The notes below the pieces were generated by a model. It worked only from the letters and a program-made list of their open reading frames with translations, did no database searches and was not told the DNA's origin. From an uncultured Paracoccaceae bacterium (GTDB lineage Bacteria; Pseudomonadota; Alphaproteobacteria; Rhodobacterales; Rhodobacteraceae), in assembly GCA_947495795.1 (NCBI GenBank), contig CANMAI010000003.1, positions 1 through 64,000 of the forward strand: 64,000 nucleotides of DNA, written 5' to 3'. Made by a program: the position numbers and the translations under genes. The number at the start of each line of letters is the position of its first letter. Position 1 is the first letter of the stretch. Below are positions 7,103-44,800 of the stretch, one piece after another.

Positions 7103-7103
7103 G

Positions 7104-8261: not shown

Positions 8262-8282
8262 ACCATGCAAAGAGTATTAGAT

Positions 8283-8465
8283 GCCTCCGGCGGGGATATT
8301 TTCAGACACAAGATGAAAGGGTTTGTTAACTATCATTTGTCACAGTTTTCTGGCGGTACAGGCGGGGACGCCGATGGCCGCGACATGAGATGGCACCCCG
8401 TTTTGCGTAAGGCAGGCGGGGTGTTTCTCCCTCATCTTATGTCTGAAAATATCCCCGCCGGAGGC
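8283..8465. repeat. 34-bp near-perfect inverted repeat in intergenic gap
   Basis: The arms at 8283-8316 and 8432-8465 are reverse complements over 34 bp with one mismatch (GCCTCCGGCGGGGATATTTT plus 14 more bases), separated by 115 bp. A related half-site lies at 50721-50742 (TCATCTTTCCGAAAATATCC). The pair could fold as a long hairpin in mRNA between the transporter genes and the downstream catabolic genes. It resembles a dispersed intergenic palindrome rather than an insertion sequence, because no transposase is present. Confidence 0.8.
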
Positions 8466-8497
8466 TCCGGGGTTTCAGGCCTGTGCAGGTGCAGGCC

Positions 8498-9031
8498 ATG
8501 AAAGGATCGCGGCCTGAGCAGGCGCCCTTGTCCCGCGCCACCGATATGTCGAAGACCAACGCGACGCGCGCTGTGATCGAGGGCATGGTTGACGGTCTCA
8601 ACGATCACCGGATTTCCGATATCGGCGAGTTTTTTGCCGAGAGCTTTTCGTGGTTCGGGAATTTCGGGTGCGGCACCAAGCGCGGGGTGCGGGAATTTCA
8701 GGAGAACTGGCAAAAGCCGTTTCAAGCCGCGTTCTCGGATAAGGTCTGTGTGGATGAGGCCCGGCTTTTCATGGGGGAATGGGCGGCGGCTTTCGGGCGG
8801 CAGGAGGCCGTGCATTCGGGGCGGTTCTTCGGCGTGGAGCCTACGGGCAAGCGGGTGGAGATCCGCTATATGGATTTCTGGAAAGTGGTAGACGGGAAGA
8901 TCGTCGACAATTGGGTGATGGTCGATTTCCCGCATGTTTTGAGCCAGTTGGGCGTTGATGTGTTCGGCGGTGAGGGCTGGGAAGCGTTTGACCGGGGCGA
9001 GAAGGTCCCGCCGGGAGGGAGCGATGGTTGA
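8498..9031 (+). CDS. Single-domain SnoaL/NTF2-like protein
   Basis: This small cytoplasmic protein (177 residues from the ATG at 8498) has one NTF2/SnoaL-fold domain and carries the ending [19 protein letters not shown]. That motif is shared with the C-terminal domains of the proteins at 2600-3577 and 10948-11994, so the three are paralogues. The start is uncertain because no strong ribosome-binding site is visible; ATG at 8546 is an alternative. It overlaps the HisD-family gene by 8 bases and opens the run of overlapped catabolic genes. Reaction unknown. Confidence 0.72.
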
Positions 9032-10331: not shown

Positions 10332-10951
10332 GGCATTTCTTGACGATTGCAGCCTGCCTGTGGGCAGCACCACTTTGGGCCGGAGAGGGTGCGCATTTTC
10401 CTGCTGAGATATCTCAGGACTGTCGGGGCGGGCTTGCGGCGCTTTACGATGAGTGCGGTTCGCAATTTGACGTGCTGGCCGATGCGAAGGCGGAGGCCGC
10501 GCGCAGTGGCCGCATCGTGCTGGTGATCTATGGCGCTGAGTGGTGCATCTGGTGCCATGTTCTCTCTGCGCATCTCGACGGGCAGGTTGGCATTTTCAGC
10601 TACCAGTTTGACGGGCAGGCGGCGCTGCTGATGGAAGGCGAGGGGCTGGATCCTGAAGCGGCCAAGGCATTGGCGGCCTATGTGGATGAGACCTTCGTGA
10701 TTGCGCATATCGAGGGCGAACGTGCGATTGACGGGGATTTCGTGCTGCGCAAGACCGGCGCTTGGGAGGCTTACGAGAAGTGGATCCCCTTTGCCTACGC
10801 GCTGAAAGATGGCCAGTTCGCTGCGGGTTTGGGACAGACAGAGCACGGGCAGGATCTCCTGATCCGGCGGGAGGGCCCTCTTTGGTACCGGGGCTATGAC
10901 AGGGCGGTGCTGATGCAGGCCTTGCGGCGGATGGAGGCGGCTGCGAGATGA
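10328..10951 (+). CDS. Exported thioredoxin-like protein with CxxC motif
   Basis: This is a 207-residue protein with an N-terminal signal peptide ([17 protein letters not shown]) and a thioredoxin-like segment containing [11 protein letters not shown] at about residues 70-80. CIWC would be the redox pair. The start is a GTG at 10328 that overlaps the HisD-family stop as GTGA, with GGGAGG upstream. It is odd to find a periplasmic thiol protein embedded by overlaps within a sugar-type catabolic operon. It may keep an exported partner reduced, or reduce a substrate disulfide. The fold is assigned from the motif only. Confidence 0.7.
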
Positions 10952-27847: not shown

Positions 27848-28846
27848 TCAGCCTGTTTCCTGCATCGCAGTCGCTCCGACATGGAGTGCTATAATCTGAT
27901 CGATGCCTTCATCGGATCGGAAACCGATGCGCCGGGCGCGTGGGGCCAGAATTTCGCCTGGCCAGCTTCGGACGATGCGCTCAACCGCTGCATCGGGCTT
28001 TGCGACCACGAGGCGGAGCGCTTCTTCGCCGCCTGTCTTGCGGAGCGTGTCGAGCATCTCGCCCACTGTTACGGAAACGCCGGGCAGGGTGATCGTCGTC
28101 TCTCCTTCCAACGCGTCTTGCTGCAATGCAATCGCTGCCAGAACGCTCTCGCACGCCCGTTCCGGTGAGGCGAGGTGAAGCCGGAGATCCTTGCCGACGG
28201 GCAGGATCGCCTCCAGCCCTGCCAGAGGCTCCCGGATGATGCCGCTGGCAAAGCTTGATGCTGCGGCATTCGGTTTTCCGGGGCGCACGGAAACGGTTGG
28301 AAATCGCAGGGTGCGACCGCGTATAAACCCCTTCCGCGAAGCATCCCGGATCAGGAGCTCGCCCATCAGCTTCTGCGTGCCATAGGATGACATGGGGCGG
28401 GGCAGTGTATCCTCATCGATTGTATCATTGTTTGCGCAGGAAAAGACGGCAACGGAGGATGAGAAGATCAGGACGGGCGGTGCCTTGAGGCGACGGCAAA
28501 CATTGATCAGCCCGATTGTGGCGTTGAGGTTCACATCCATCCCAAGCTGGAATTCGGCTTCCGCTGCACTGCTGACAACCGCGGCAAGGTGGATGATCAC
28601 ACCCGGTTCCGCCGCCGAGATGCGGTTGAGCACGGCCGGATCGCCAAGGGATCCGTTGATCCGCTGGATCCTCCTGTCCCTTGCCGCCAGATCCTGTAGC
28701 GCATCTGTGTTGAGATCTACCGCGAGAATGTTGCCAATCTCCTTGGCGCTGCCATCAACGCTTATCTGGCGCTGCGCCGAAAGTGCTGTAAGCACCATTT
28801 TCCCGATGAAGCCCGCTGCTCCGGTGATGAGGATATCTGTTTTCAT
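27848..28846 (-). CDS. denD: NAD-dependent epimerase/dehydratase, D-erythronate dehydrogenase-like
   Basis: This 332-residue extended SDR has the nucleotide loop GAAGFIG near the N-terminus and the catalytic SSYGTQK tyrosine-lysine pair. The overall pattern (SSSVAVF, RTLRFPTVSVRPGKPNAAAS) resembles DenD, which oxidises D-erythronate at the start of its catabolism. DenD identity is inferred from the pattern, so the symbol is tentative. The ATG at 28846 overlaps the TctA stop as ATGA, which ties it to the tricarboxylate-type transporter; an upstream start at 28897 is less likely. The other four-carbon acid catabolism genes (kinase, aldolase) are not here. Confidence 0.75.
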   Translation of the reverse strand: MKTDILITGAAGFIGKMVLTALSAQRQISVDGSAKEIGNILAVDLNTDALQDLAARDRRIQRINGSLGDPAVLNRISAAEPGVIIHLAAVVSSAAEAEFQLGMDVNLNATIGLINVCRRLKAPPVLIFSSSVAVFSCANNDTIDEDTLPRPMSSYGTQKLMGELLIRDASRKGFIRGRTLRFPTVSVRPGKPNAAASSFASGIIREPLAGLEAILPVGKDLRLHLASPERACESVLAAIALQQDALEGETTITLPGVSVTVGEMLDTLRKTGGEEALRLVVAKPDAAVERIVRSWPGEILAPRARRIGFRSDEGIDQIIALHVGATAMQETG

Positions 28847-30342
28847 GCGCGAGAGCGCTCCTTCTTCCACGAGAGTAGGGCCCGGACCAGTGGCCAAAGC
28901 AAAGCCACCGCCGTAACAGTCAGCAGGACGGCGGCAATCGGATGTCCGTCAAAGAAAGCGGCAAAGGAACCATCTGTGATGATCAGGCCCTGTCTGAGGC
29001 TCAATTCAAAGGCGGGGCCGAGGACCATGCCGATGATCAGGGGGGCCATTGGGTAGCCAGCGCGTCGCAGAAACAGCCCGGCAACGCCTGCGGCGAACAT
29101 GATCAGAAGATCGAACGGATTGCCGCGCACGTAGTAGACGCCAAGCACGCAGAGCACGCCGATGGCGCTGAGCATCAGTGGCTCGCGGATCCGCAGGATG
29201 GGCGCTGCAACCTTGGACAGGAGCAGACCGAGGGGGAGCAGAAGGATGTTGATCACAAAGAACCCGAGGAAGATGGCCGCCATCAGCACGGGATTGTCTT
29301 CCATCAGGCGGACGCCGGGGGTGATGCCGTGCAGCGTGAAGGTGGCGAGCATCACGGCGGTGATCACATCACCTGGAATGCCGAGCGCCATTGTAGGGAC
29401 GAGCGCACCGCCGGTAACGGCATTGTTGGCGCTCTCTGCGGCGATGATCCCGTCGGGTTCGCCCTTGCCGAACTCTGCACCGCGGGGGGAGGAACGCTTG
29501 GCCTCCGCATAGGAGATAAATGCGGCAGTGGCGCTGCCAGTGCCCGGCAGCACACCCACGCCCGAGCCGATGGCGATGGATTTCGCCAAGCCCTTCAGCC
29601 GCCCTTTCCATTGCGAAAGGCGGGGCAGGACGATGCCTTTGAACTCAATTTTTGTGCCCCCCTCCGATGCGCCATCGGCGATGCGGATGAGAATTTCGGA
29701 AAAGGCGAAAATGCCGATCACCACGGCCAGCAGGTTGAAGCCTGCAATCAGCTGATATTGCCCGAAGGTGAAGCGTACCTCGCCTGTGATCGGATCGCCG
29801 CCGATGGTGCTGAGAAAGATGCCGAGTGCGCCTGCGGTGAGGCCCTTGAGGGCGGAGCCCTTGGAAACGGTAACGATGCAGGTCATCCCGAGGCAGATGA
29901 GCGCAAACGTCTCCACCGGGCCAAACTGCAGGGCGAAGGCGGCCAGTTGCGGGGCTGCGAAAAGAAGGAGGATCGCCGAAAACAGCCCGCCGACAACGGA
30001 GGCGACAGTGGCCCAGCCGAGGGCTTCCCCGGCCTTGCCTGCGCGCGCCATCGGTGTGCCATCCAGTACTGTGGCCGCCCCTGCCGGTGTGCCGGGTGTA
30101 TTGATGAGAATGGCCGAGATGGAGCCGCCGTAGACGGAGCCTGCGTATACGGCGAGGAGAAGAAGGATGGCCGGGGCCTGTTCCATCGAAAGTGTGAACG
30201 GTAGGACGAGGGCGACTGCAACGGTTGAGCCGATGCCCGGCATGGCCCCGAGAACGATGCCGAGGGCTGTGCCGATCACAAGGACGAGCATGCCTTGCAT
30301 TGTCAGCAAAAGTCCGAGGGCTGCGGGGAGCGCTTCGAGCAT
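28843..30342 (-). CDS. tctA: Tripartite tricarboxylate transporter large permease (TctA)
   Basis: This 499-residue integral membrane protein of the TctA family has about 11-12 hydrophobic segments. The N-terminal GAMPGIGSTVAVALVLPFT and mid-protein GVLPGTGSATAAFISYAEAK glycine-proline motifs mark the family. It works with TctB and the periplasmic TctC for proton- or sodium-driven uptake of carboxylates. It starts on the last base of the tctB stop and overlaps the dehydrogenase gene by 4 bases. Confidence 0.93.
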   Translation of the reverse strand: MLEALPAALGLLLTMQGMLVLVIGTALGIVLGAMPGIGSTVAVALVLPFTLSMEQAPAILLLLAVYAGSVYGGSISAILINTPGTPAGAATVLDGTPMARAGKAGEALGWATVASVVGGLFSAILLLFAAPQLAAFALQFGPVETFALICLGMTCIVTVSKGSALKGLTAGALGIFLSTIGGDPITGEVRFTFGQYQLIAGFNLLAVVIGIFAFSEILIRIADGASEGGTKIEFKGIVLPRLSQWKGRLKGLAKSIAIGSGVGVLPGTGSATAAFISYAEAKRSSPRGAEFGKGEPDGIIAAESANNAVTGGALVPTMALGIPGDVITAVMLATFTLHGITPGVRLMEDNPVLMAAIFLGFFVINILLLPLGLLLSKVAAPILRIREPLMLSAIGVLCVLGVYYVRGNPFDLLIMFAAGVAGLFLRRAGYPMAPLIIGMVLGPAFELSLRQGLIITDGSFAAFFDGHPIAAVLLTVTAVALLWPLVRALLSWKKERSRA

Positions 30343-30806
30343 CAGAACAGGTAGGAGAAGGGCGATGTGGGAAGTGGCAGGCCCAGACCGTGGTGGAAAA
30401 GGAGAAAGAGCGCCCCGGGGACCGCCAGAGAATAGCAGATGATCAGAACGGGCCCGCGTACGCGGAGAATGAGCAGGGTTGCCAGCACAAAGCCGATGCC
30501 GCTCAACAGAAAGCCAAGGCGTGTGGTGGCGTAGACAAAGAGCGCCATAGCGATAGCTACACCCACGATCTGTGCCCAGCGGCGCGGGGAGATCGCATTT
30601 TTTTCCGTGTTCGTTGTGATCTCACTGGCAAGGGTCAGAGCGGCAACAATCGCCCAGCCCCAGAGCACGTTGACGGGGAAGAACATCGGGGAGAAGGCCC
30701 CGCCGAGATCTGCAAACTCTGCACTTGTCGAGAGCAAGAGAAGGATCACCGGGGCTGCAAACAGCACTGCAGCCACGACGATGCGCTCATTGAGTTGAAA
30801 TTTCAT
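30342..30806 (-). CDS. tctB: Tripartite tricarboxylate transporter small permease (TctB)
   Basis: This 154-residue protein with four predicted membrane segments is the usual size and place of TctB, between tctC and tctA. The ATG at 30806 has GAGGATC upstream; a start at 30830 would shorten the gap to tctC but has no better site. TctB is poorly conserved in sequence, so the identification rests on size, topology and position. Confidence 0.85.
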   Translation of the reverse strand: MKFQLNERIVVAAVLFAAPVILLLLSTSAEFADLGGAFSPMFFPVNVLWGWAIVAALTLASEITTNTEKNAISPRRWAQIVGVAIAMALFVYATTRLGFLLSGIGFVLATLLILRVRGPVLIICYSLAVPGALFLLFHHGLGLPLPTSPFSYLF

Positions 30807-30864: not shown

Positions 30865-31809
30865 TCAGAGCCCCGCCGCTTCGATCAGGGTCTTGTTGGC
30901 GTCCCATTGCTGGCGGAAGAAGGCATCGAACTCTTCCGGGCCGCGATAGTTGATCACGGTGCCTGTACTTTCAGCAAAAGCCTGGAAAGCATTGGATTGT
31001 ACTGCACCTTCGCAGGCGCTTGCCAGTTTCGCCGTTACTTCGGCATCTAGTCCGGCGGGCGCGAAGAGGCCGCCCCAGAGGTAGAGCTCGTTCAGGGGCG
31101 CCGCGATCCCGGCTTCCGTGGCCGTCGGCACATCGGGGAGGGAGGCAAGCCGCTCATCCGCGAACACCGCGAGAGGCTTCAGATCATAGCGCGACATCAT
31201 CACCTCGGTATCGCCGAAGAACTGGATGATGCCACCCGCCATGGATTTCATTGCGGGGCCGGAGCCTTTGTGCGGCAGATGCTTGACCTTATCCATCACG
31301 CCCATACCGTTCATGGCGGCCACCATCGTGAGATGCGTGATCGCACCTGGGCCCGAGGAACCGAAAATCAGCGCGTTCGGCTTTGCCTCGATATCCGCTT
31401 TCACATCCTCAAGGCTGTTGTATTCACTATCTGCGCCGACAAAGAACATCGTGGGCGAGGCGGCGACAGAACAGATCGGCGTCCAGCTTTCCTTGTCGTA
31501 GGGCACGTCCTTGATCTGGGGCTGGATCGTTGAAACCGTGATCGAGAGATACCCCAAAGTATACCCGTCAGGGCTGAGGCCTGCGATATGGGAGGCTGCA
31601 ACCGTGCCGGACCCACCAGCCATGTTCTGCACAACGGCATTTCCGCCAAGGGCTTCTGCGAAGGGTTCCTGAAAGCCGCGCAGCAGCAGATCGGTGCCAC
31701 CACCGGCGTTAAAGGGCGCGATTAGTGTGACGGGTTTCTCCGGAAAATCTGCCCAGACCGGGGTTGCCAGTGCAAGGGCCGCCGTGCAGACTATTGATCC
31801 AAATTTCAT
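30865..31809 (-). CDS. tctC: Tripartite tricarboxylate transporter binding protein (TctC/BUG family)
   Basis: This 314-residue periplasmic binding protein has a signal peptide (MKFGSIVCTAALALATPVWA) followed by DFPEKPVTLIAPFNAGGGTD, the standard opening of the TctC/BUG family. The carboxylate-binding loop IAPFNAGGGTD is intact. The ATG at 31809 has GGGAGGAG upstream. It is transcribed toward tctB-tctA-denD, and a FadR-type operator candidate lies about 70 bases upstream. The ligand is likely a hydroxy- or dicarboxylate, given the linked dehydrogenase. Confidence 0.92.
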   Translation of the reverse strand: MKFGSIVCTAALALATPVWADFPEKPVTLIAPFNAGGGTDLLLRGFQEPFAEALGGNAVVQNMAGGSGTVAASHIAGLSPDGYTLGYLSITVSTIQPQIKDVPYDKESWTPICSVAASPTMFFVGADSEYNSLEDVKADIEAKPNALIFGSSGPGAITHLTMVAAMNGMGVMDKVKHLPHKGSGPAMKSMAGGIIQFFGDTEVMMSRYDLKPLAVFADERLASLPDVPTATEAGIAAPLNELYLWGGLFAPAGLDAEVTAKLASACEGAVQSNAFQAFAESTGTVINYRGPEEFDAFFRQQWDANKTLIEAAGL

Positions 31810-31877
31810 GTTATCTCCTCCCATTTAAGCAATACGCGAAGGCCTTGATCGTTGAAGGCCATGCCGAATTACACCGT

Positions 31878-31891
31878 AACTGGTATAACAT
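31878..31891 (+). promoter_or_regulatory. FadR-type (GntR) operator candidate upstream of tctC
   Basis: AACTGGTATAACAT contains TGGTATAACAT, which fits the FadR-subfamily consensus TNGTNNNACNA at all but the last base. Very similar sites lie at 35939-35953 and 38118-38131, upstream of the two TRAP operons. It is about 70 bases upstream of the tctC start. Confidence 0.6.
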
Positions 31892-32091
31892 GTTCCTGTC
31901 CATATCTACTTTCGAACTCTCTTTGAAAGACCAGAGCAGAGGGCGCTTTCATTGATTTCATTGAGATATGAGCTCAAATTTCAACGGATAGGCGGGCTCT
32001 GCGAGCTTGTGCTCCGATCGATCTTACCTGACAAGTGGGGGGGGTGCGCTGCAGACTGCCAACCAACCGAAGCTCCGCAAGGGGACGCTGA

Positions 32092-32835
32092 ATGAAAATC
32101 TATACCGAAACGCAGGGCGCGGGTCCGCCGCTTCTCTTTATCGGGGGATCCTCCTGGGATCTTCGGTTTGACCGTGTGGCTTTCGATTGGGCTCCCCGCG
32201 CGCGGGTAACGGCCTTTGATCAGCGCGGGTTGGGGCAGACTGGGGTTCCGGCAAAGGAGTGGCGTATGGCGGACTACGTGGCGGATGCGCTGCGGGTGAT
32301 GGAAGGCTGCGCGCGGTTTGATCTTGTGGGCTACTCTTTCGGAAGCATGGTGGCGCAGCATCTGGCTGCCAAGGCACCTGAGCGCATCAACCGATTGGCG
32401 CTGATTGCGGCAGGGCCCGGTGGCCCGCTTGGCTCCTATCCGCTGCACGCGCTGGCGGATCTTCCTGTTCTGGAGCGTGTGCGCAAGATTATCGCCATTC
32501 AGGATGTCCGCAAGGAAGGCTGCGTGGATGCAGCGGAAGTGGCGCGTATGGCAGCCAATCTGGAGCGGAAAGCGGCGGTGGCACCCAAGGGCGGTGCGGC
32601 ACGCCTGCTGGCCGTTCGCGCCGGCCACGATGCACGCCATCTGTTACCCTCCATTCAGGCTCCCACCTGGGTGATTGGCGGCCTTCACGATGGGCAGGCC
32701 CCGCGCCGCATTGTGGAGGCGTTGGCGGATGCGATCCCCGGCGCGCGGCTTATGCTCATGCCGGGTGGGCATACATTTGTTGTGGATGCGGACGGGCCCT
32801 TGCAGGCGCTTGCGCGGCTATGGGATATCGGTTGA
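32092..32835 (+). CDS. Alpha/beta hydrolase
   Basis: This 247-residue alpha/beta hydrolase has the nucleophile elbow VGYSFGSM (Ser about residue 81) and a C-terminal histidine in MPGGHTFVVDADG. The small size and lack of a signal peptide fit a cytoplasmic esterase or lactonase, including the 3-oxoadipate enol-lactonase-like group. It is alone on the plus strand, divergent from tctC and convergent with the TAXI-TRAP permease gene, whose 3' end it overlaps by 18 bases. A lactonase would suit a region for sugar-acid uptake, but this is inference. Confidence 0.82.
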   Translation: MKIYTETQGAGPPLLFIGGSSWDLRFDRVAFDWAPRARVTAFDQRGLGQTGVPAKEWRMADYVADALRVMEGCARFDLVGYSFGSMVAQHLAAKAPERINRLALIAAGPGGPLGSYPLHALADLPVLERVRKIIAIQDVRKEGCVDAAEVARMAANLERKAAVAPKGGAARLLAVRAGHDARHLLPSIQAPTWVIGGLHDGQAPRRIVEALADAIPGARLMLMPGGHTFVVDADGPLQALARLWDIG

Positions 32836-34740
32836 TCCGGCTGCCTGTGCGGGCGGGTTGGTGGATGATTTCCGGCGATATTGAAGGAGCACCACACAGG
32901 CAACGAGAACGAGACCTGCAATATCTGTTCGCAGGCCGCCGAGCAGGAGGCAGATGGCCGCCGCAAGCAACACAACCCGCTCCAAGACATGTGCGGGCAT
33001 CACGAGATAGGCCTGCGCGGCAGCGGCCAACGCCACTATCCCCAGGGATGCTGTCAGCACGGCCTGCGCAACTTCCGCCCAACCGGCATTTAGTATCAAT
33101 GCCGGGGTTGCGATGAACATGAAGGGCACCAGATAGACGGCCACACCGAGGCGCATGGCGGTGAAACCCACGGCCTGCAGAGACTTTTCTCCCGCGATAC
33201 TGCCCGCTGCGTATGCCGCCACCGCAATGGGCGGCGTGATGGCCGATACGATGGCGTAGTAGAAGACGAAGAGATGCGCGGAAAGCGGGCTGATCCCCAG
33301 CTTGACCAATGCGGGAGCTGCGAAAATTGCCACGATGATATAGGCGGCGGCCGTTGGCAGCCCCATGCCCAGAATGATGCAGCTGACCATCACCAAGAGC
33401 AGCGTTATCACCAGATCACCATTGGTAACGCTGAGCAGCAAGGCGGTGAAGCGCAGGCCGAGCCCTGTGAGTTCGATTGTGCTGATGATCATCGCTGCCA
33501 CGAAGAGAGACATGGCAATGGGTGCGATGATCCGGCCCCCTGTCTCGAACGCTTCCAGAATACCGCGAAGGTTCATCCGTGTTGCCGGGAAGATCTGGGC
33601 GAGTACGATGGTGGTGATGATGCCCCAATATGCCGCGTTGTAGGGCGATCTGCCCTCGATCAGCAGGTAGACGATCACCACGAGTGGCACGCCGAGATGG
33701 GCATATCTGAAGAAATCCTTTTTGGCGTTGGCAATGAGATCTTCCCCCATCGCGGGGATATCGTTTTTGGCCGCTTCCAGATGCACCATCATGTAGACGG
33801 CAAAGAGGTAGAGATAGGCGGGAATGATCGCGGCCTTGACCACTTCAAAATACGCCGTGCCTGTGAAATCCGCGATCAGGAAGGCGGCAGAGCCCATGAT
33901 GGGAGGCACGAGTTGCCCGCTGGAGGATGCGATTGCCTCAATCGCTGCGGCAAATCGTGGCCGGAAGCCTGTGCGGATCATCAGGGGAATTGTGAAGCTG
34001 CCGGTTGCATAGACATTTGCAACAGCCGAGCCAGAGATGGACCCGAAAAGCCCACTTGCAAACACGGCAACCTTGCCCGCCCCGCCTTTCAGCCTGCCAG
34101 CCAGAAGGGCGGAGGCATTCATGAAGAACTTGCCACCCTGCGCACAATCGAGGATCGCACCGAAGAGGACGAACATGAGGACATAGGTGGCAGAGAGCCC
34201 CGTAAGCGAGCCGTAAATGCCTGCCGTTGTCATGAAAGTATGGTCAATGATCCTTTCCACACCGATAGCGGGCTGGTTCAGGACGCCCGGAAAATAGGGG
34301 CCGAAAAGGGCGTGGCCGAGGAAAAAGGCCAGCATCAGCGTCAGCGTCAGCCCAAGGGCGCGGCGGCAGGCCTCGGTTGCCAGCACCATGACAGTGAGGC
34401 CCACGATCCAGTCCATCGTCTCCAGCGGCTCCACGTAAGGATAGCGCAGCGAGATACGATCATAATCGAGATACACATAGGCCGCCGGAATCAGCGCGAT
34501 GCCCGCCAGCACGAAATCATACCACGGGATCCGGGAGCCTTCTCGCCCGCGCAGGAAGCCGTAGGCCAGAAAAACGAGGGCCGTGTACATACCCACATGG
34601 ATCGAACGGAAGATCAGCACCTGCGGCTGGCCGAACTGCACCGTGTAAAGATGGTAGAAAATCACGATCAGCGTAAAGAACCGCAAGATCAGAGCGTGAC
34701 TGCCTGACAGAATGCGCTGCCCGCTAACCTCGACGGCCAT
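32818..34740 (-). CDS. TRAP transporter fused permease (TAXI type)
   Basis: This 640-residue membrane protein fuses the small (DctQ-like, about residues 1-115) and large (DctM-like) subunits into one chain, as is usual for TAXI-TRAP systems. Motifs such as GLFGSISGSAVANVYATGSF and GSAAFLIADFTG belong to the DctM core. It forms the channel for the binding protein encoded immediately upstream (34841-35845). The gap between the two genes holds a strong hairpin. Confidence 0.92.
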   Translation of the reverse strand: MAVEVSGQRILSGSHALILRFFTLIVIFYHLYTVQFGQPQVLIFRSIHVGMYTALVFLAYGFLRGREGSRIPWYDFVLAGIALIPAAYVYLDYDRISLRYPYVEPLETMDWIVGLTVMVLATEACRRALGLTLTLMLAFFLGHALFGPYFPGVLNQPAIGVERIIDHTFMTTAGIYGSLTGLSATYVLMFVLFGAILDCAQGGKFFMNASALLAGRLKGGAGKVAVFASGLFGSISGSAVANVYATGSFTIPLMIRTGFRPRFAAAIEAIASSSGQLVPPIMGSAAFLIADFTGTAYFEVVKAAIIPAYLYLFAVYMMVHLEAAKNDIPAMGEDLIANAKKDFFRYAHLGVPLVVIVYLLIEGRSPYNAAYWGIITTIVLAQIFPATRMNLRGILEAFETGGRIIAPIAMSLFVAAMIISTIELTGLGLRFTALLLSVTNGDLVITLLLVMVSCIILGMGLPTAAAYIIVAIFAAPALVKLGISPLSAHLFVFYYAIVSAITPPIAVAAYAAGSIAGEKSLQAVGFTAMRLGVAVYLVPFMFIATPALILNAGWAEVAQAVLTASLGIVALAAAAQAYLVMPAHVLERVVLLAAAICLLLGGLRTDIAGLVLVACVVLLQYRRKSSTNPPAQAAGSTDIP

Positions 34741-34795
34741 ACCGATCCTTCCTCAAAACTATCAGATGCCCTCAGCGCGCATCATATACAACAAA

Positions 34796-34819
34796 GTTGC
34801 CCCACTCGCGCGGGGCAAC
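34796..34819 (-). terminator. Hairpin between TAXI binding protein and permease genes
   Basis: GTTGCCCC and GGGGCAAC form a perfect 8-bp stem around an 8-base loop. On the transcribed strand it is followed by TTTGTTGT. It lies 22 bases after the binding-protein stop and probably causes partial termination. Confidence 0.65.
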
Positions 34820-34840
34820 CAAGGCACACTTTGATTGGGC

Positions 34841-35845
34841 TTACTTCAGGACGCCGACTTCGCGGTAATAGCGCTCAGCACCGGGATGCAGCGGCACTGT
34901 CAGCCCGAAGGGGGCTTTCGCAAGATCCAGCGCCTTGAAAGCATTGTGGCCTGCGATCAGTTCGTCGGTTTTCTCGAACATCAGCTTTGTCATCTGATAG
35001 ACGACCTCTTCATCCATATCCGCCGTAGTGACGAACAGGGGTGTCTGATAGGTCGTCATGATATCCTCGGTCTGGCCCTCATACGTGCCCGCAGGGATCA
35101 CGCCCGGGATGTAGCCGTACTTCTCTTCCATCAGCTTGATCGCCTCGGGGGACTGGGAATAGATGGTGATATCATCCTTGGCGGCGAACTCGGCAAAAAG
35201 CGGTGCGCCTGGCAGATCATCATTGGCAAAACCGTCGATCTGCTTGTCGTTCACCCTGTCCATCGCCTCGCGGTACGGCGAATAGGTGATCGAGCCTCCC
35301 CAGGCCTGGATATTCTCATAAGAGGCCCCGTGGGCAGCCAGCATGCGCCCGGCGGCCAATTCGCCCCCGCCGCCGCGCGGGCCGGTATCGACCTTCAGGG
35401 GAATCTTGCGCTCAGCAATATCTCCCAGTTCCTCGATGCCGAGGGAGGTATCGAAATAGACGTGCATATAAGCCGAGAGGCCCGTGTTTGCGATTGCACG
35501 CACATTATCAAGCTTGCTCTTGTAGGGTTCATCTCCTCGAGCGGCGGCAAAAAGGTTTGTGGAGTAGGACATTGCAAATTGCGATTGCCCGCTGCTCAGC
35601 GAAATGGGATTGGCAACGCTGCCTCCCGGAATGGTCGTGTATGTCAGCCCATCGATATTGTTGCGGTAAAGCTCGAACATCGTCGTCATGATCGCGAACC
35701 AGCTTCCGCTGATGGAGCCCGCAGACACGGTATAGGATTTGTCCTGTGCCAGAGCAGGTGCGCCGGACAGTGGTGCGCCTGCAACGGCAAGCGAGAGTGC
35801 GGCGGCTGTTGCCCCACGCTTCAGGAACAGTGTTGAAATCATCAT
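34841..35845 (-). CDS. TAXI-family TRAP transporter substrate-binding protein
   Basis: This 334-residue periplasmic protein has a signal peptide (cleavage near ALAQDKSY) followed by the TAXI-family opening SGSWFAIMTTMFELYRNNI. TAXI-TRAP systems import organic acids such as glutamate or other carboxylates; the ligand here is unknown. The ATG at 35845 has GGGAGGAT upstream. Its promoter region shows TTGACA (35967-35972, minus strand) and a TATGAC -10-like element inside the FadR-type operator candidate. Confidence 0.9.
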   Translation of the reverse strand: MMISTLFLKRGATAAALSLAVAGAPLSGAPALAQDKSYTVSAGSISGSWFAIMTTMFELYRNNIDGLTYTTIPGGSVANPISLSSGQSQFAMSYSTNLFAAARGDEPYKSKLDNVRAIANTGLSAYMHVYFDTSLGIEELGDIAERKIPLKVDTGPRGGGGELAAGRMLAAHGASYENIQAWGGSITYSPYREAMDRVNDKQIDGFANDDLPGAPLFAEFAAKDDITIYSQSPEAIKLMEEKYGYIPGVIPAGTYEGQTEDIMTTYQTPLFVTTADMDEEVVYQMTKLMFEKTDELIAGHNAFKALDLAKAPFGLTVPLHPGAERYYREVGVLK

Positions 35846-36285
35846 GTTTAATCCTCCCAGATACGCCTCTCGCCCCCTTTGATCCGGGCGGAGATTTTGA
35901 GCTTTTGGATGCGCGCCATTCTGGCATCTTCATCTCACTTGTCATACCAGTTTAAATGCGTCGATATGTCAAGCACCCTCATTCGGACTTGAGAAACACC
36001 TGCAAATCTGCGATGTTTTGTTGAGCAAATACAGATTTTTAGCTGAAGTAGGCTCGCCTTGAGAGAGGCTGTAGAGTGACAACTGATCAGATATAATCGC
36101 GGGAATGGAGTGATATCTAAAGTGCTTTCGGAAAACTCGCCACACCGGCTTAGATCAATCTACAGCCCGATCTGGGATGGCTGTTGCAGGACCAGCGGCC
36201 AAACATCCCCCCAAGGGCTCGTTCGGCCTGCGCCGTTGTCACGAAACCGCTTGAATTGTTCAGATCGCTGTATGATTTTGGCGCC
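35846..36285. other. 440-bp divergent intergenic region
   Basis: This gap separates the TAXI-TRAP operon (minus) from the GntR regulator gene (plus). It is clearly more AT-rich than its surroundings. It contains the TAXI promoter/operator at 35939-35972 and a TATAAT at 36092-36097 that could serve the regulator gene. I see no credible gene in it. Confidence 0.6.
35939..35972 (-). promoter_or_regulatory. Promoter with overlapping FadR-type operator for TAXI-TRAP operon
   Basis: On the minus strand TTGACA (35967-35972) is separated by 20 bases from TATGAC (35941-35946). The latter lies inside AACTGGTATGACAA, whose core TGGTATGACAA (35939-35949) matches the FadR-subfamily consensus TNGTNNNACNA fully. 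Binding there would block RNA polymerase at the -10 region. Confidence 0.6.
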
Positions 36286-37014
36286 ATGACCGCAACAAAG
36301 CCAAAGCCCCGCAAGAAGAACCTCTCCCACGACATACGCGAGAGCCTCCTTGCGCTCCTCGAAAACGATGCCTACGGGCCGGGGGCAGCTCTGCCATCCG
36401 AACGCGAGCTGATGGCGCAGTTCGGCGTGGGCCGCCCGGCTGTGCGGGAGGCGATGCAGCATTTGCAGGTAATGGGGCTGGTAGAGATACGCCACGGCGA
36501 GCGTGCCAAGGTGGCCGAGCCTTCCATCGGGAAGATGGTGGAGCATTTCAGCGGTACGATGCGGCATCTGCTGGCAACCTCCAGCGCCAATCTTGAGCAT
36601 CTCAAGACAGCGCGCTTTGCGTTCGAGAAGGCGATGGCGCAGGAAGCGGCGCGGATGCGCACGACTTCGGATCTGGAGAGGCTGCGGCGGATTGTTGATG
36701 CGCAGGCGGGGGCCATGTCCGATATGACAAGTTTCCTGACGCATGATCGGGAGTTTCACCGCGCCTTGGCGTCAATCAGCGGCAACCCCATCTATACGGC
36801 GCTGGCAGAGGCAATGTTCGGCTGGCTGGCAGATTTTCATGCGGATACCGTTATTCTGCCGGGGCGTGAGCAGCTTACCATTGATGAACATCTGGAAATT
36901 GTGGATGCGATAGAGGCCAAGAACGCAGCCCGCGCTGCAAAGGCGATGCACGATCATCTTACCCGCGCAAATGTGCTCTATCATCGGACTTATCTCGCCT
37001 CTCCGGAGCCCTGA
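36286..37014 (+). CDS. GntR-family transcriptional regulator (FadR subfamily)
   Basis: This 242-residue regulator has an N-terminal winged helix (about residues 15-80, with LPSERELMAQFGVGRPAVRE) and an all-alpha FCD ligand domain (about 90-235). The FCD domain carries the metal/ligand histidines in DREFHRALAS and MHDHL. FCD proteins bind carboxylates, sometimes through a metal. The ATG at 36286 starts the conserved domain; an in-frame ATG at 36184 would add 34 residues without homologous features. Matching operators upstream of tctC, the TAXI gene and dctP make it the likely local repressor. Repeat copy 2 begins at its stop codon. Confidence 0.9.
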   Translation: MTATKPKPRKKNLSHDIRESLLALLENDAYGPGAALPSERELMAQFGVGRPAVREAMQHLQVMGLVEIRHGERAKVAEPSIGKMVEHFSGTMRHLLATSSANLEHLKTARFAFEKAMAQEAARMRTTSDLERLRRIVDAQAGAMSDMTSFLTHDREFHRALASISGNPIYTALAEAMFGWLADFHADTVILPGREQLTIDEHLEIVDAIEAKNAARAAKAMHDHLTRANVLYHRTYLASPEP

Positions 37015-37116
37015 AGCGTTTCGCTTTAAACTTGAATCACCTATCGCTGCCTGAAATCAAAGATTTCAACGCGTTAGGTGACAAGTGATAGCGCAGGTTA
37101 AAGACGAAACGCTTTA
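37013..37116 (+). repeat. Palindromic intergenic repeat, copy 2
   Basis: About 104 bp. The left end AAGCGTTTCGCTTTAAAC and right end GGTTAAAGACGAAACGCTTT are inverted repeats. The centre shares TGAAATCAAAGATTTCAACG and GCGTTAGGTGA with copy 1. It exactly fills the gap between convergent genes, and its right end contains the stop codon of the cyclase gene. Confidence 0.88.
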
Positions 37117-38019
37117 GATCAGTGCGAGCGGGCGGAGGGGTGCGCCGGTTGCGCCCTTCAGCTTGACCGCGGCGATCACGATGCAGAACGTTGTGATCCG
37201 CTTTGCCACCATCTCATCCAAGCAAAGGTTCTCGATGAGGTTCACACCGGCCTCGACGAGGCAATGCAGGTGAACGGGCATCTGTACCTTGGGAAAATCG
37301 GCACCGGGCAAAACCTCCACCGCCATCGTATCCGCGCCGATGGCGATCACCCCATGTGACGTGAGATAGCGTGCTGCCGTAAGGTCTATGCCCGGTTCAC
37401 CGGCGATATAGCGTTGGGGATCAGTATCGTAGTAACGGCCCCAACCGGTATGCAGACAAACCACATCTCCGGGCCGGGGGGGTGTTCCGGCGGCTGCAAA
37501 TGCTGCCTCCAGATCGCTTTGGGTCACGGCGCGCCCGGGCTCCAGATGCGCGGCGCCATCCAGTCCGGCAAGATCGAGGCATATCCCGCGCGTCACAATG
37601 GGTGGTATGTTTTCCACGCCAAGTTCCGCCAGCCCGGAAGGTGTTGTAAGTGCCTCTGCGGATCTGCCCCCATACATCCTGTCGCCCTCTGCGAAATGCC
37701 CCAAGGCATCGATATGAGTGCCAACATGGCTGGTCATCCCGATCCGCTCCAATATCGCTCCGGCATCATTCTCACCCCCGTTTGCGCGGCGCATGGCGAT
37801 GTTATCGGAGGCCCGCACGGTTGGCGAAAGCACATAAGGGGTCATGAGGGCGGGATTGGCGGGTGCGCCCGGCATGACGGTGCGGCCGAGATCGATCACA
37901 TGCCCCGTCTGTGCGAGTGTCAGGGCAGCGAGGGTCACATCCGCCGTCAGATATCGCCCTGCGGCCCCGGCCTGATTGCCCGGAGCCCACTCCGAATGAT
38001 CGTGAATGCAAGCCGTCAT
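37114..38019 (-). CDS. Cyclase family protein (kynurenine formamidase-like)
   Basis: This 301-residue protein of the metal-dependent cyclase/hydrolase family has the signature HVGTHIDALGHF (about residues 100-111), whose histidines and aspartate bind the metal. Related enzymes hydrolyse N-formylkynurenine, isatin or similar amides and lactams. No other tryptophan-degradation gene is nearby, so the substrate is open. The ATG at 38019 has GGAGGAG upstream. It is divergent from dctP, so both may respond to the same regulator. The TAA stop lies in repeat copy 2. Confidence 0.85.
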   Translation of the reverse strand: MTACIHDHSEWAPGNQAGAAGRYLTADVTLAALTLAQTGHVIDLGRTVMPGAPANPALMTPYVLSPTVRASDNIAMRRANGGENDAGAILERIGMTSHVGTHIDALGHFAEGDRMYGGRSAEALTTPSGLAELGVENIPPIVTRGICLDLAGLDGAAHLEPGRAVTQSDLEAAFAAAGTPPRPGDVVCLHTGWGRYYDTDPQRYIAGEPGIDLTAARYLTSHGVIAIGADTMAVEVLPGADFPKVQMPVHLHCLVEAGVNLIENLCLDEMVAKRITTFCIVIAAVKLKGATGAPLRPLALI

Positions 38020-38098
38020 TCGACACTCCTCCGCATCGCGGTTTCGGACCGATCAGGCCCGCTTTGAAGCCTGTCTGGAACTCTGCGGAGAGAATGAC

Positions 38099-38131
38099 TT
38101 GACAGGATCACATTTTCAACTGGTATGATGA
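38099..38131 (+). promoter_or_regulatory. Promoter with overlapping FadR-type operator for dctPQM
   Basis: TTGACA (38099-38104) and TATGAT (38124-38129) are spaced by 19 bases. TATGAT lies inside AACTGGTATGATGA (38118-38131), which fits TNGTNNNACNA with one mismatch. It is about 105 bases upstream of the dctP start. The architecture is the same as at the TAXI promoter. Confidence 0.6.
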
Positions 38132-38234: not shown

Positions 38235-39338
38235 ATGACATCATCAATCGAACGAAGGCAGTTCATCCGAACGGCGGGGCTCGGTGCCGCAGGCGCTGCC
38301 GTGCTCGCAGCACCGGCCCTTGCGCAGGGGAAAAAGGAGCTTCGTTTCGTAACGTCCTTTCCCACAATGTTTCCCGGGCTGGGCACCTCTGCGCGGCGCG
38401 TAACAGACAGGATAAACCTAGCTACAGAAGGCCGTATCGAGGTTAAGTTGTATGATCGTGGTGCTCTTGTGCCGGGCGGTGTGGGTGTGTTTGAGGCGGT
38501 TTCTGCAGGCAATGCGGATATGTATTACTCATCCGAATACTACCACCCGTCAAAGAGCCAAGCCTACAATATCTACGGTGCCGTGCCCTTTGGCATGACA
38601 ACGCCGGAAACCTATGCCTGGATCCTACATGGCGGTGGCCAGCAGCTCTGGGACAAGCTTCATGCAGATTTCAACATGAAGCCGTTTGCCGGGCCCTCCA
38701 CAGGTGTTCAGATGGGTGGCTGGTATAACAAACAGATCGAATCACTCGATGATATGAAGGGCGTGAAGTTCCGCATGCCCGGCCTTGGAGGAGAGGTTCT
38801 GCGCTCAATCGGGGTGGCGGTTGTCAACCTGCCCGGATCGGAGGTTTTCGCGGCACTCCAGTCCGGTGCTATTGATGGCGCTGAATGGGTTGGCCCGTGG
38901 CACGATCTGGCCTTCGGCTTTCACAAGATCGTAAAGCATTACCACTGGCCCGGCTTCCACGAGCCTGGAAACATCGGTTCCTACGGGATCAATCTCGGCT
39001 TCTGGGAGGGTGTATCAGATGCCGACAAGCAGATCATCACATCCATCCTGGAAGCGGAATGCTATCTGCAAACCGCAGAGTATAACGGCGTCAGCCCCGA
39101 TGCGCTGGATAAGCTTCTGACGGAACACGGCGTTCAGTTGCACCAGTATCCTGACGAGCTGTTGGTGGAACTTGCCAAGGCGAGCAGGGATGTGATGGAA
39201 GATGTTGCGGGTGCCGATGCGATCACCAAGGATGTCTGGGAGAGCTACAAGGCCTTCCGTGAGAAATCCATGGGCTGGTCGAAATTGGGTATTCAGGGTT
39301 TCCTGAACGCCCGCACCCTCGCGCAATCCAGCATCTAA
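38235..39338 (+). CDS. dctP: TRAP transporter substrate-binding protein (DctP type)
   Basis: This 367-residue periplasmic binding protein has a Tat-type leader (ERRQFIRTAGLGAAGAAVLA). The DctP family body includes MPGLGGEVLRSIGVAVVNLP, with the conserved arginine that contacts the substrate carboxylate (FRMPG), and AALQSGAIDGAEWVGPW. Such proteins bind C4-dicarboxylates, keto acids or sugar acids. The ATG at 38235 has GGAGGAAG upstream. It heads the dctPQM operon, with a hairpin in the gap to dctQ. Confidence 0.92.
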   Translation: MTSSIERRQFIRTAGLGAAGAAVLAAPALAQGKKELRFVTSFPTMFPGLGTSARRVTDRINLATEGRIEVKLYDRGALVPGGVGVFEAVSAGNADMYYSSEYYHPSKSQAYNIYGAVPFGMTTPETYAWILHGGGQQLWDKLHADFNMKPFAGPSTGVQMGGWYNKQIESLDDMKGVKFRMPGLGGEVLRSIGVAVVNLPGSEVFAALQSGAIDGAEWVGPWHDLAFGFHKIVKHYHWPGFHEPGNIGSYGINLGFWEGVSDADKQIITSILEAECYLQTAEYNGVSPDALDKLLTEHGVQLHQYPDELLVELAKASRDVMEDVAGADAITKDVWESYKAFREKSMGWSKLGIQGFLNARTLAQSSI

Positions 39339-39398: not shown

Positions 39399-39950
39399 AT
39401 GGATCCCATGCTCAAACTCTCCCGCCTTCTCGATACGATTACAGACAGGTTTGGCCGTGGCCTCGCATGGCTGGCGATCTCGATGGTCGTGTTGCAGGGC
39501 GTTGTTGTCTTCATGCGCTACGTGTTCGGTCTGTCGATCCTGTGGATGCAGGAGGGTATCCTGTATCTTCACGCGATCATCTTTCTCTCTGCGGCCGGGT
39601 ATACGTTGCTGCACGATGGCCATGTTCGCGTCGATATTTTCTATAGTGGGGCAACCGCCAGAACGAAGGCCGTGATTGATATCATCGGCATCGCCTTTCT
39701 GCTCATGCCGGTCTGCCTGCTTCTGTTCTGGGCGGGTTGGCCTTATGTCGCCTCATCCTGGGCCGTTTTTGAAGGATCGATGGAACCGTCCGGGATCCCT
39801 GCGATGTTCCTCCTCAAAACCTGCATTCTCCTCTTCCCGGCGACGCTTGCCTTGCAGGGCCTCTCAATGGTGCTCCGCTCCATTCTCGTGCTGCAGGGCA
39901 AGCTGGAGACGAATGCATGGCAGCCGCCCCTCAGAAGCCCTGAAGGATAG
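39399..39950 (+). CDS. dctQ: TRAP transporter small permease (DctQ type)
   Basis: This 183-residue protein has four predicted membrane segments and the family stretch RYVFGLSILWMQEGILYLHA (about residues 45-64). It pairs with DctM to form the permease. The ATG at 39399 is used; an in-frame ATG lies three codons downstream. It is followed by dctM after 3 bases. Confidence 0.88.
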   Translation: MDPMLKLSRLLDTITDRFGRGLAWLAISMVVLQGVVVFMRYVFGLSILWMQEGILYLHAIIFLSAAGYTLLHDGHVRVDIFYSGATARTKAVIDIIGIAFLLMPVCLLLFWAGWPYVASSWAVFEGSMEPSGIPAMFLLKTCILLFPATLALQGLSMVLRSILVLQGKLETNAWQPPLRSPEG

Positions 39951-39953: not shown

Positions 39954-41525
39954 GTGGGGTCTGATATCCTGCTCGGCCTGATGGTCGCGTTTGTTTTCGG
40001 CGCTCTGATGCTCGGGTTTCCCGTGGCGTTCACGCTAGCGGGCGCGTCCATTCTCTTTGGGCTGATGGGCTGGTGGTTTGATGTGTTCCAGCTTTCGTTC
40101 TTTGCCGTATTGCCGAACCGCATCAGCGGCCTGATGGCCAATCAGGTGCTGATCGCAATACCGCTTTTCATCTTCATGGGCGTCATGCTGGAACGGTCCC
40201 GCGTGGCGGAAGAGCTTCTGGAGACGATGGGCATGCTCTTTGGCAGGCTGCGGGGCGGGCTTGGTATCTCTGTCGCGATTGTGGGGGCGATGCTTGCAGC
40301 CTCAACGGGTATTGTGGGGGCCACGGTGGTTACCATGGGCCTTGTGGCGCTGCCCACGATGCTGCGGCGCGGCTACGATCCGAAGCTGGCGACCGGTATC
40401 ATCGCGGCGTCGGGAACGCTTGGGCAGATCATCCCGCCTTCGATCATTCTGGTGGTGCTGGGGGATCAGATCTCGATCGCGTATCAGGAAGCACAGCGCA
40501 AGCTTGGCAACTGGTCGCCTGATCCTGTCTCAGTCGGAGATCTCTTTGCCGGTGCCCTGATCCCCGGTCTCGTTCTGGTGGGGCTCTATATCCTCTACAT
40601 CCTGATTGTCTGCTGGTTCCGCCCGTCTGCCGGGCCTCCGATTACGGAGGTAGATGCTCAAAATGCAGGCCACCTTGGCCAGCGCCTGGTCCATGCGCTT
40701 CTGGCTCCGGCTGTTCTCATCGTCTCGGTCCTCGGGTCAATTCTCTCGGGCATCGCCACACCGACAGAGGCGGCGGCACTCGGTGCGCTTGGCGCCACCA
40801 TGCTCGGTGGATACAGGGCCAATACTGAACGGAAATGGGCTGTACTGCTTGCCTGCGCCGGTCTTGTCATCCTGATCTTTCTTGTCACCCAGGTCGATAT
40901 GCGGGTGACGCGTGAAATCGGCACAGCGCTGGAGCGTGCGTCGATCTGGGCGGCTGTTCTCGCCTGCATCGCGGTGGCCTACGGCTTTGCCGTCTGCCTC
41001 TGGCGCGTCTTCCGGAACGGTACGCTCGCAGAGGTCAACCGTCAGACCATCCGCATCACATCCATGGTGTTTGCGATCATCATCTGTGCCCAGCTTTTTT
41101 CACTCGTTTTCCTCGGATTGGGGGGCGATGAGATTGTCACAAGTATCCTCACATCCCTTCCCGGCGGCACGTTCGGGGCGGTCTTTACCGTTATGCTGGT
41201 GATCTTCGTGCTCGGCTTCTTTCTCGATGTACTGGAGATCTCTTTCGTGGTCGTTCCCATCGTCGCGCCCGTTCTTCTGGGGATGGAGCTTAATCCGGTC
41301 TGGCTCGGCGTGATGATCGCGGTCAACCTGCAAACTTCCTACCTCACGCCCCCCTTTGGCTTCGCGCTTTTCTACCTGCGCGGGGTGACACCGGTGGAAG
41401 TCTCGACCGGCACGATATACAAGGGCGTGGCCCCGTTCGTGGTAATCCAGCTTTCCATGCTTGGCATTCTGGCCCTCTTCCCCGGCCTTGCCACATGGCT
41501 GCCCGGAGTTATTTTCGGGCCCTGA
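39954..41525 (+). CDS. dctM: TRAP transporter large permease (DctM type)
   Basis: This 523-residue membrane protein begins at a GTG. Conserved DctM stretches include FPVAFTLAGASILFG, LLAASTGIVGATVVTMG-like and SGTLGQIIPPSIILVVLG. It is about 90 residues longer than short DctM proteins because of an extra hydrophobic block at about 285-385, a known feature of the long DctM subtype. It ends the operon, and repeat copy 3 begins at its stop codon. Confidence 0.92.
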   Translation: MGSDILLGLMVAFVFGALMLGFPVAFTLAGASILFGLMGWWFDVFQLSFFAVLPNRISGLMANQVLIAIPLFIFMGVMLERSRVAEELLETMGMLFGRLRGGLGISVAIVGAMLAASTGIVGATVVTMGLVALPTMLRRGYDPKLATGIIAASGTLGQIIPPSIILVVLGDQISIAYQEAQRKLGNWSPDPVSVGDLFAGALIPGLVLVGLYILYILIVCWFRPSAGPPITEVDAQNAGHLGQRLVHALLAPAVLIVSVLGSILSGIATPTEAAALGALGATMLGGYRANTERKWAVLLACAGLVILIFLVTQVDMRVTREIGTALERASIWAAVLACIAVAYGFAVCLWRVFRNGTLAEVNRQTIRITSMVFAIIICAQLFSLVFLGLGGDEIVTSILTSLPGGTFGAVFTVMLVIFVLGFFLDVLEISFVVVPIVAPVLLGMELNPVWLGVMIAVNLQTSYLTPPFGFALFYLRGVTPVEVSTGTIYKGVAPFVVIQLSMLGILALFPGLATWLPGVIFGP

Positions 41526-41842: not shown

Positions 41843-44800
41843 ATGCCTACGACACCCGGTGACGACGAACTCTTTGGTGATGCAGACAACAACACGATCA
41901 GCGGTGGCGATGGCGATGATCGGATCTTTGGCCGTGCGGGGAATGACACGCTCAACGGCGACAATGGCAACGACCTGCTGAACGGCGGTGAGGGTGATGA
42001 CATCCTCAATGGCGGCGACGGCGACGACAATCTGCGCGGCGGCGACGGCAATGATACGCTGAACGGCAATGATGGCAACGACAGGCTTTTTGGCGGCGCG
42101 GGCGACGATACGCTGAACGGCGGCAACGGCAATGACGTGCTCATGGGCGATGCCGGTGCAGACGCTCTGGACGGCGGCGGAGGCATTGACACCGTGGATT
42201 ACTCCGCGTCCGGAGCTGGAATAACGGTCGTCATGAACAACGCCCAGACTCTGGGTATCGGCGGGGACGCTGAAGGCGACACGCTGCGAAATTTCGAAAA
42301 CCTCATCGGCTCCGCCTTCGATGACACCATCACCGGCAACAACGGAACCAATGTGATCAAAGCGGGCGCCGGTAACGACTTCATCGATAGCCGGGACGGC
42401 AGTGATGACGTGTTTGGCGAAGAAGGTAACGACACAATCAGGATCGTGAACGATAACAACCGCATCATCGATGGCGGCGCAGGTAATGATACGCTGATTG
42501 TGACTGAAAACGATGACTTGCGCAACGATACCCTCGTCTCGATCGAGAACATCGTTCTGCAAATCACCGGCAGAGACGATGCGATCATCCGTTTGAACGT
42601 TGAACAAATTGCGGATCTGCAATCGATCACGTTCATTCCACAGAACGGAAACCAGTTTGCAGATATCCGTGTCGGCGCCGCTGGAGAAACCGAGGTTGAT
42701 CTTTCCGGCATCGAGCTTATCGGCTTCGACCCTGCGCGGGATCGGTTCGTTGTCGAGGGAAACGACAATATTGACGAGGTTCTCACAGCCTCTGCCCTTG
42801 ACGATATCATCAATGGTCGCGGTGGCAATGATACCCTGAGAGGGTTTGGTGGTGATGATGAGTTGAACGGCGGCGATGGCGATGACCGGGTGTTCGGTGG
42901 CGCTAGCAACGACACGCTGAACGGCGGCAACGGTGCTGACAGGCTCGTTGGCGGCGGTGGCAATGATAGGATCAATGCCGGTGATGGCAACGATGCACTC
43001 TTTGGTGGCGACGGTGATGACGATATCCGCGGCGAAAACGGCAACGACACGCTGGATGGAGGTGACGGAGACGACCAGTTGTTCGGCGGCGACAACAACG
43101 ACCTGCTTCTGGGCGGCGCCGGTGCAGACATCATGGAAGGCGGCAACGGAAGGGACACCGTGGATTACTCCGCGTCCGGAGCTGGAATAACGGTCGTCAT
43201 GAACAACCGCGACGTGCTCGGCATCGGCGGGGACGCTGAAGGCGACAGCCTGCGGAACCTCGAAAACCTCATCGGCTCCGCCTTCGATGACACCATCACC
43301 GGCAACAACGGAACCAATGTGATCAATGCGGGCGCCGGTGACGATTTCATCGATAGCCGGGACGGCAGTGATGACGTGTTTGGCGAAGCAGGTAACGACA
43401 CGATCCGGATCGTGAACGATAACAACCGTATCATCGATGGCGGGGCAGGCAATGATACGCTGCTTGTGACCGAAGCCGATGACTTGCGCAACGATACCCT
43501 CGTCTCGATCGAGAACATCGTTCTGCAAATCACCGGCAGAGACGATGCACTCATCCGTGTGAACGCGGAACAGATCGCGGATCTGCAATCGATCGCGCTT
43601 GCTCTCCAGAACCTCAACCAGTTCGCCGATATCCGCATCTCCTCCGATGGAGAGACCGAGGTTGACCTCTCCGGCATCGAACTGATCGACTTGGATCCTG
43701 CACTGGACCGGTTCATCATCGAAGGCGACAACGATAGTGAGGTTCTCACAGCCTCCGACCTTAACGACATCATCAATGGTCGCGGCGGCAATGATACCCT
43801 GAGAGGGCTTGGTGGCGACGACGAGTTGAACGGTGGCGACGGCAACGACACGCTGGACGGCGGTGCGGGTGATGACGAGCTTCGCGGCGACGACGGCAAC
43901 GACACGCTGGACGGCGGTGCGGGTGATGACGAGCTTCGCGGCGGCAACGGCAACGACACGCTGGATGGTGGTGACGGAGACGACTTCCTGACCGGCGGCA
44001 ACAACAACGATCTGCTTTTGGGCAGCGCTGGTGCAGACATCATGGATGGCAGCAACGGAAGGGACACCGTGGATTACTCCGCGTCCGGAGCTGGAATAAC
44101 GGTCGTCATGAACAACCGCGACGTGCTCGGCATCGGCGGGGACGCTGAAGGCGACAGCCTGCGGAACCTCGAAAACCTCCGCGGCTCCGCCTTCGATGAC
44201 ACCATCACCGGCAACAACGGAACCAATGTGATCAATGCGGGCGCCGGTAACGACTTCATCGATAGCCGGGACGGCAGTGATGACGTGTTTGGCGAAGAAG
44301 GTGACGACATAATCCGGATCGTGAACGATAACAATCGCATCCTAGATGGTGGCGCGGGCAATGACACGCTTCTCGTGACCCAGAATGATGACCTGCGGAA
44401 CGATACACTCGTCTCGATCGAGATTATCGCTCTGGAAGTTACCGGCAGGAATGATGTTCTGATCCGCCTCAACGGAGAACAGGTCGAAAATCTGCAGTCC
44501 CTGACATTCGATTTGCAGCAGCCCAACCAGTTTGCCACGATCGACATCCGGGGTGGAGAAGCGGTTGTGATCGACGTCTCAGATGTGGATCTGACAGGCT
44601 TCGAGGCGACCCGGGATCAGTTCCTCATCATCGGAGACGGCGATTCCGAGACCCTCATAGCTTCGGACCTCAATGACAAAATCGAAGCCAATTCCGGCAA
44701 TGACACCATCGATGGCGGTGCGGGTGATGATGAGCTTTTCGGACAGAATGGCCGGGATGTCTTTATCAGCGGTGCCGGTGCCGACTTCATGGATGGCGGC

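Follow-up and report, generated by a model that had tools for sequence, protein, structure and literature searches.

A NanR-clade GntR/FCD regulator very probably controls three unrelated carboxylate uptake systems in an uncultured Paracoccaceae bacterium

We analyzed a stretch of 64,000 nucleotides from an uncultured, marine-type Paracoccaceae bacterium (assembly GCA_947495795.1, contig CANMAI010000003.1, positions 1 to 64,000; hereafter, the window) in which gntR, a gene encoding a GntR/FCD regulator, lies among the operons of three uptake systems: a tripartite tricarboxylate transporter (TTT; tctCBA-denD), a TAXI-TRAP system and a DctP-TRAP system (dctPQM). Comparison of their promoter regions with those of homologous loci indicates that one regulator of the NanR family very probably controls all three of these unrelated systems, and the full explanation, in which this protein is a NanR-clade acid-sugar repressor acting on the three operons, appears likely. 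An earlier reading of the DNA, made from the sequence alone, had proposed that a single GntR/FCD regulator governs the three transporter operons. This core proposal is supported by the words enriched around homologous regulators, by the co-occurrence of operator and regulator in 397 genomes and by the conservation of the sites. What the computation establishes is the family of the regulator, the operator and its tie to the regulator clade, how well the sites are conserved and which genes related loci contain. The three transporter classes named in the sequence-only reading were borne out by hidden Markov models (TctC, PF03401; TAXI, TIGR02122 and TIGR02123; DctP, PF03480, with DctQ and DctM). 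Of the 11 FCD genes of the genome, the window indeed contains just the regulator gene that this reading had placed mid-block, which lies between the TAXI operon and dctPQM (Table 1).

The regulator combines a GntR winged helix (PF00392) with an FCD domain (PF07729) and retains the D/H/H/H metal ligands. Homology starts near the ATG at 36286; an alternative upstream TTG at 36184 would yield a 276-aa product. The protein passes the NF003011 model of the NanR subfamily narrowly (269.2 bits, cut-off 260; E. coli NanR scores 409), the closest solved chain is that of NanR (6on4, E = 4.2e-38) and its DNA-recognition region is nearly identical to that of NanR, while the LldR, PdhR and FadR models scored far under their cut-offs. 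Judged by these matches, it is a NanR-clade GntR/FCD protein. Because it passes NF003011 and has NanR as its closest solved relative, the site to be expected is the NanR unit TGGTATAW, and not the palindromic FadR consensus. NanR binds direct repeats of TGGTATAW (PMC4494728). In E. coli its operator is composed of three GGTATA units (PMC8012715), and the sequence of the nanA operator there, CTGGTATAACAGGTATAAAGGTATA, contains CTGGTATAACA.

Near-identical motifs upstream of tctC, the TAXI binding protein gene and dctP, as previously described, were found at all three positions, at 54 bp, ~94 bp and ~104 bp from the respective start codons. The genome-wide search suggested by the earlier reading was run on the 4.84-Mb genome and returned three exact matches to AACTGGTATRAYRW, all of them in the window and within one 6.3-kb stretch. 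Allowing one mismatch yielded 11 matches, versus 6 for a reversed control pattern. Since AACTGGTATRAYRW was derived from the three sites themselves, its rarity in the genome would, taken alone, be a circular argument. The claim that the motif cores fit the FadR-subfamily consensus did not hold: the palindromic FadR-type operator TNGTNNNACNA was rejected, as it fits only one of the three sites (TAXI) and occurs in the window no more often than expected by chance (2 observed, 4.7 expected). Given that the regulator is NanR-like and that NanR binds TGGTATAW or GGTATA direct repeats, the motif is, by this comparison, one NanR operator unit, CTGGTATRA, with a single clear TGGTATA-type unit present at each site.

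Tests independent of the window's own sites were based on homologous regulators. Around 20 such regulators from other genera, with the window excluded, the top enriched 10-mers (ACTGGTATAA and ACTGGTATGA) are of the CTGGTATRA type. Across 397 genomes of the family, AACTGGTATRATNAG is present in 28 of the 42 genomes that carry the regulator (scored at E < 1e-35) and in 8 of the 355 that do not (Fisher P = 1.6e-25, a value that overstates the strength of the association because related genomes are not independent draws, although nearly all of these genomes are one per genus). Of the 33 AACTGGTATRATNAG words in regulator-bearing genomes, 28 are no more than 12 kb away from the regulator gene; the genome of the window itself contains no exact AACTGGTATRATNAG match. 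A matrix was then built from relatives, with the window and its two close orthologs, the blocks of Yoonia sp. F2084L and Roseobacter CCS2, set aside. Among ~1.0 million positions of this genome, it gave the highest score to the dctP site (32.1) and the next highest to the TAXI site (23.9). The background for these ranks is a genome sample of ~0.5 Mb in which several stretches had been picked for holding one-mismatch sites, so that it looks worse than it really is. The AA...AG flanks around the operator core are conserved as well. The three motifs are not a product of chance.

The block is preserved in Yoonia sp. F2084L (73-91% protein identity) with sites at tctC (26.8), TAXI (24.5) and dctP (29.8), the first of them 53 bp from tctC, and with two further sites at the hydrolase (25.8) and gntR (21.2) genes. 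In Roseobacter CCS2, the contig of which starts within the TAXI permease gene, sites are found at TAXI, dctP and gntR. Conservation of the motifs upstream of orthologs next to the regulator, which had been put forward as a check, was hence observed for all three sites in Yoonia and for two (TAXI and dctP) in CCS2, and in alignments with both relatives the motif stands out as a conserved island amid poorly conserved sequence. Pelagibius presents the gene order gntR-TAXI-denD-like, and its site overlies the start of gntR. In a second sample of 397 genomes of the family, no further close ortholog was present at E < 1e-85, and a plasmid search returned homologs of ≤47% identity among the best matches listed. 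Because no further close orthologs were found, footprinting rests on Yoonia, CCS2 and two more distant loci, one of them in Pelagibius, and the close-ortholog footprint comprises two blocks. The operator-like sites at hydrolase and gntR promoters of the relatives (Yoonia block positions 5811 on the minus strand and 9900 on the plus strand; CCS2 block position 1716 on the plus strand) lack a counterpart in the window. An additional match at 38718 (GGCTGGTATAACAA) was not counted, as it lies inside dctP and is conserved in Yoonia and CCS2 as coding sequence, with low scores there (12-16).

Of the three sites, confidence in this genome is lowest for that at tctC, which leaves some room, if not much, for the possibility that only the nearest operons, TAXI and dctP, answer to the regulator, with the tctC match being fortuitous or serving another factor. 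The matrix score of this site (16.2, rank 7 among the positions scanned) is similar to that of background matches, its orientation is reversed and, of the three sites, it fits the second repeat least. Yet Yoonia harbors a far better site at the same place and one more at the divergent hydrolase gene, and the presence of denD in the tct operon suits an acid-sugar theme.

Several other observations weigh, along with this near-background score, against control of all three systems by one acid-sugar repressor. Support for the tctC site comes from one orthologous block only, that of Yoonia, and the second repeat, which reads AGTATAA in several relatives, is degenerate at all three window sites. Autoregulation, suggested in relatives, seems to have been lost here, because no good site precedes gntR in the window (best score 3.6 on the gntR strand). 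The ltnD-otnK-otnC operon of this genome, encoding tetronate kinase and decarboxylase and located on another contig (positions 8285-11114), has no operator site, and the ligand is uncertain because homologs of the regulator also sit beside other pathways.

In the mechanism that we propose, the regulator would block RNA polymerase by binding CTGGTATRA units in or close to the promoters of three operons (tctCBA-denD, TAXI-TRAP and dctPQM); at TAXI and dctP, where the unit sits on the predicted -10 region, repression would take place by occlusion. Binding of a carboxylate ligand at the FCD zinc site and a conserved arginine would release the repressor, and a tetronate- or apionate-type acid sugar would in this manner induce the three uptake systems and erythronate dehydrogenase together. 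Repression as opposed to activation, the ligand and the simultaneous induction of the three systems are inferred from sequence comparison. FadR-type regulators are able to activate as well as to repress, and the site shows no constant spacing to a -35 element at homologous loci; both points would fit an activator or dual regulator at one or more promoters. We consider such a role improbable: the TAXI and dctP sites lie on a -10-like element, the usual position for repression, and E. coli NanR acts as a repressor (PMC8012715).

The location of these sites also bears on whether the motif is merely an extended -10 element (TGnTATRAT) that recurs at three similar strong promoters and that the regulator need not bind. 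The sequence-only reading had noted that in two cases the motif overlaps the -10 element at the same distance from a TTGACA. The overlap with a -10-like element stands at TAXI and dctP; the equal distance was rejected, since the TTGACA-to-TATRAY spacing is 20 nt at TAXI and 19 nt at dctP, each constant in orthologs. At tctC there is no TTGACA at the corresponding distance, and the motif is oriented opposite to the gene. Operator and -10 element may well coincide at TAXI and dctP, and CTGGTATGAT can be read as TG-n-TATGAT with a TTGACA at these distances upstream. A general promoter element, however, would exceed three copies in the whole genome and would not be concentrated in regulator-bearing genomes (28 of 42, versus 8 of 355), nor does it account for the conserved AA...AG flanks, for the direction of the tctC site or for homologous sites that keep no TTGAC at promoter distance. 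A purely promoter-based origin of the motif is therefore quite unlikely.

With regard to the ligand, the NanR zinc ligands (Asp172, His176, His222 and His244) and Arg128 are invariant across the homologs aligned, and Phe168 of NanR is kept in the regulator, while the residues of NanR that contact N-acetylneuraminic acid (Neu5Ac), namely Asn165, Arg203, His214, Asn215 and Gln221, are changed or deleted. Neither the window nor any of the 25 homolog neighborhoods examined contains nanA, nanE or nanK. These neighborhoods are instead rich in DUF1537 kinases (OiaK-like), RuBisCO-like proteins (OiaX-like), ApnL-like lactonases and DenD; the OiaK, OiaX and ApnL matches fall under equivalog cut-offs, and exact substrates are thus not fixed by them. 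In CCS2, genes for OtnK and OtnC (over cut-off) and an OtnI-like protein (under cut-off) follow directly behind dctPQM (block positions 6949-10491), and such genes are absent behind dctPQM in the window and in the Yoonia block. This pattern points to a small tetronate- or apionate-type acid sugar (D-erythronate, L-threonate or a relative) as the most likely ligand, and Neu5Ac is an unlikely effector. That the regulator is a true sialic acid sensor, NanR, and that the transporters import sialic acid, as the subfamily match, the shared operator unit and the ability of TRAP transporters in other bacteria to carry sialic acid might lead one to suppose, is highly improbable in view of the missing nan genes and the contacts that are not kept.

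The locus was compared with the nearest known systems. With E. coli NanR (6on4, 6wfq, 6wg7) the regulator shares the GntR and FCD domains, NF003011, the DNA-recognition region, a GGTATA-type unit, the zinc ligands and Arg128, but it is 34% identical, lacks the five Neu5Ac contacts and has no nan genes nearby; its targets here would be three transporters and erythronate dehydrogenase. Whereas three dimers occupy three GGTATA repeats in the E. coli operator, each window site presents one good unit. Alphaproteobacterial "NanR" homologs beside OiaK/OiaX/ApnL-like genes (e.g., on the S. meliloti megaplasmid) have the ligand-pocket features and an adjacent AACTGGTATRAT operator in common with this regulator, but are mostly 36-53% identical to it and adjoin acid-sugar enzymes, often with an ABC or a single TRAP transporter and no triple transporter block. 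Loci for tetronate catabolism (DenD/LtnD, OtnI, OtnK, OtnC) are represented here by denD, and by the OtnK-OtnC-OtnI-like genes behind dctPQM in CCS2, whereas the kinase, decarboxylase and ltnD genes of this genome lie on another contig without the operator. FadR/LldR/PdhR-type FCD regulators belong to the same superfamily and share the FCD domain; unlike theirs, the operator here is not a TNGTNNNACNA-like palindrome, and their models score far below cut-off.

The regulator belongs to a known family, and its operator unit is known as well. The literature searched, which took in few subscription papers, yielded no description of the triple transporter regulon or of an acid-sugar role for this "NanR" group, and a prior description elsewhere is possible. 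Many alphaproteobacterial NanR-subfamily regulators adjoin OiaK/OiaX/ApnL/DenD-like acid-sugar genes and not sialic acid genes. For this group the NanR label looks wrong on the basis of gene context, which indicates that the automatic annotation is misleading for a large set of alphaproteobacterial regulators. It is about an even call whether these proteins are a clade of their own, sensing acid sugars, in which the NanR operator code was retained while the ligand changed, and of which one member here would run a TTT/TAXI-TRAP/DctP-TRAP block from single units, two of them on extended -10 promoters. Little is known about the ligands of TTT and TAXI transporters. Through a common operator the three transporters are tied to a single effector and a single pathway, and screening the regulator once for ligands would thus narrow down the substrates of all of them.

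Table 1. Genes and predicted operator sites of the transporter block (window coordinates).
Feature	Position	Strand	Evidence or remark
denD, D-erythronate dehydrogenase, last gene of tctCBA-denD	27848..28834	-	NF043036, 359.5 bits (cut-off 325)
tctA, large permease	28843..30342	-	Open reading frame; Yoonia ortholog 91% identical; named by synteny and tct operon order
tctB-like small permease gene	30342..30797	-	Open reading frame between tctC and tctA; syntenic Yoonia ortholog, 75% identity
tctC, TTT binding protein	30865..31824	-	PF03401, E = 5e-42
Operator site upstream of tctC, AACTGGTATAACAT	31878..31891	+	Predicted; orientation reversed relative to tctC
Alpha/beta hydrolase, divergent from tctC	32092..32835	+	PF00561
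TAXI system fused TRAP permease	32818..34740	-	TIGR02123, 600 bits
TAXI-type TRAP binding protein	34841..35845	-	TIGR02122, PF16868
Operator site upstream of TAXI-TRAP operon, AACTGGTATGACAA	35939..35952	-	Predicted; overlaps -10-like element
gntR, GntR/FCD regulator, NanR clade, 242 aa from ATG 36286	36286..37014	+	PF00392, PF07729, NF003011
Putative cyclase, divergent from dctP, common intergenic region	37114..38019	-	PF04199, E = 1.6e-28
Operator site upstream of dctPQM, AACTGGTATGATGA	38118..38131	+	Predicted; overlaps -10-like element
dctP-type TRAP binding protein	38235..39338	+	PF03480, E = 1.1e-39
dctQ	39399..39950	+	PF04290
dctM	39954..41525	+	PF06808, TIGR00786

Two further features of the block were recorded. 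An imperfect inverted repeat, for which a terminator scan gave no call, lies at window positions 37013-37117, where gntR and the cyclase gene converge. Directly 3' of dctM, positions 41843-45496 encode a large, repetitive protein whose GGxGxD repeats are of the calcium-binding (RTX-like) type.

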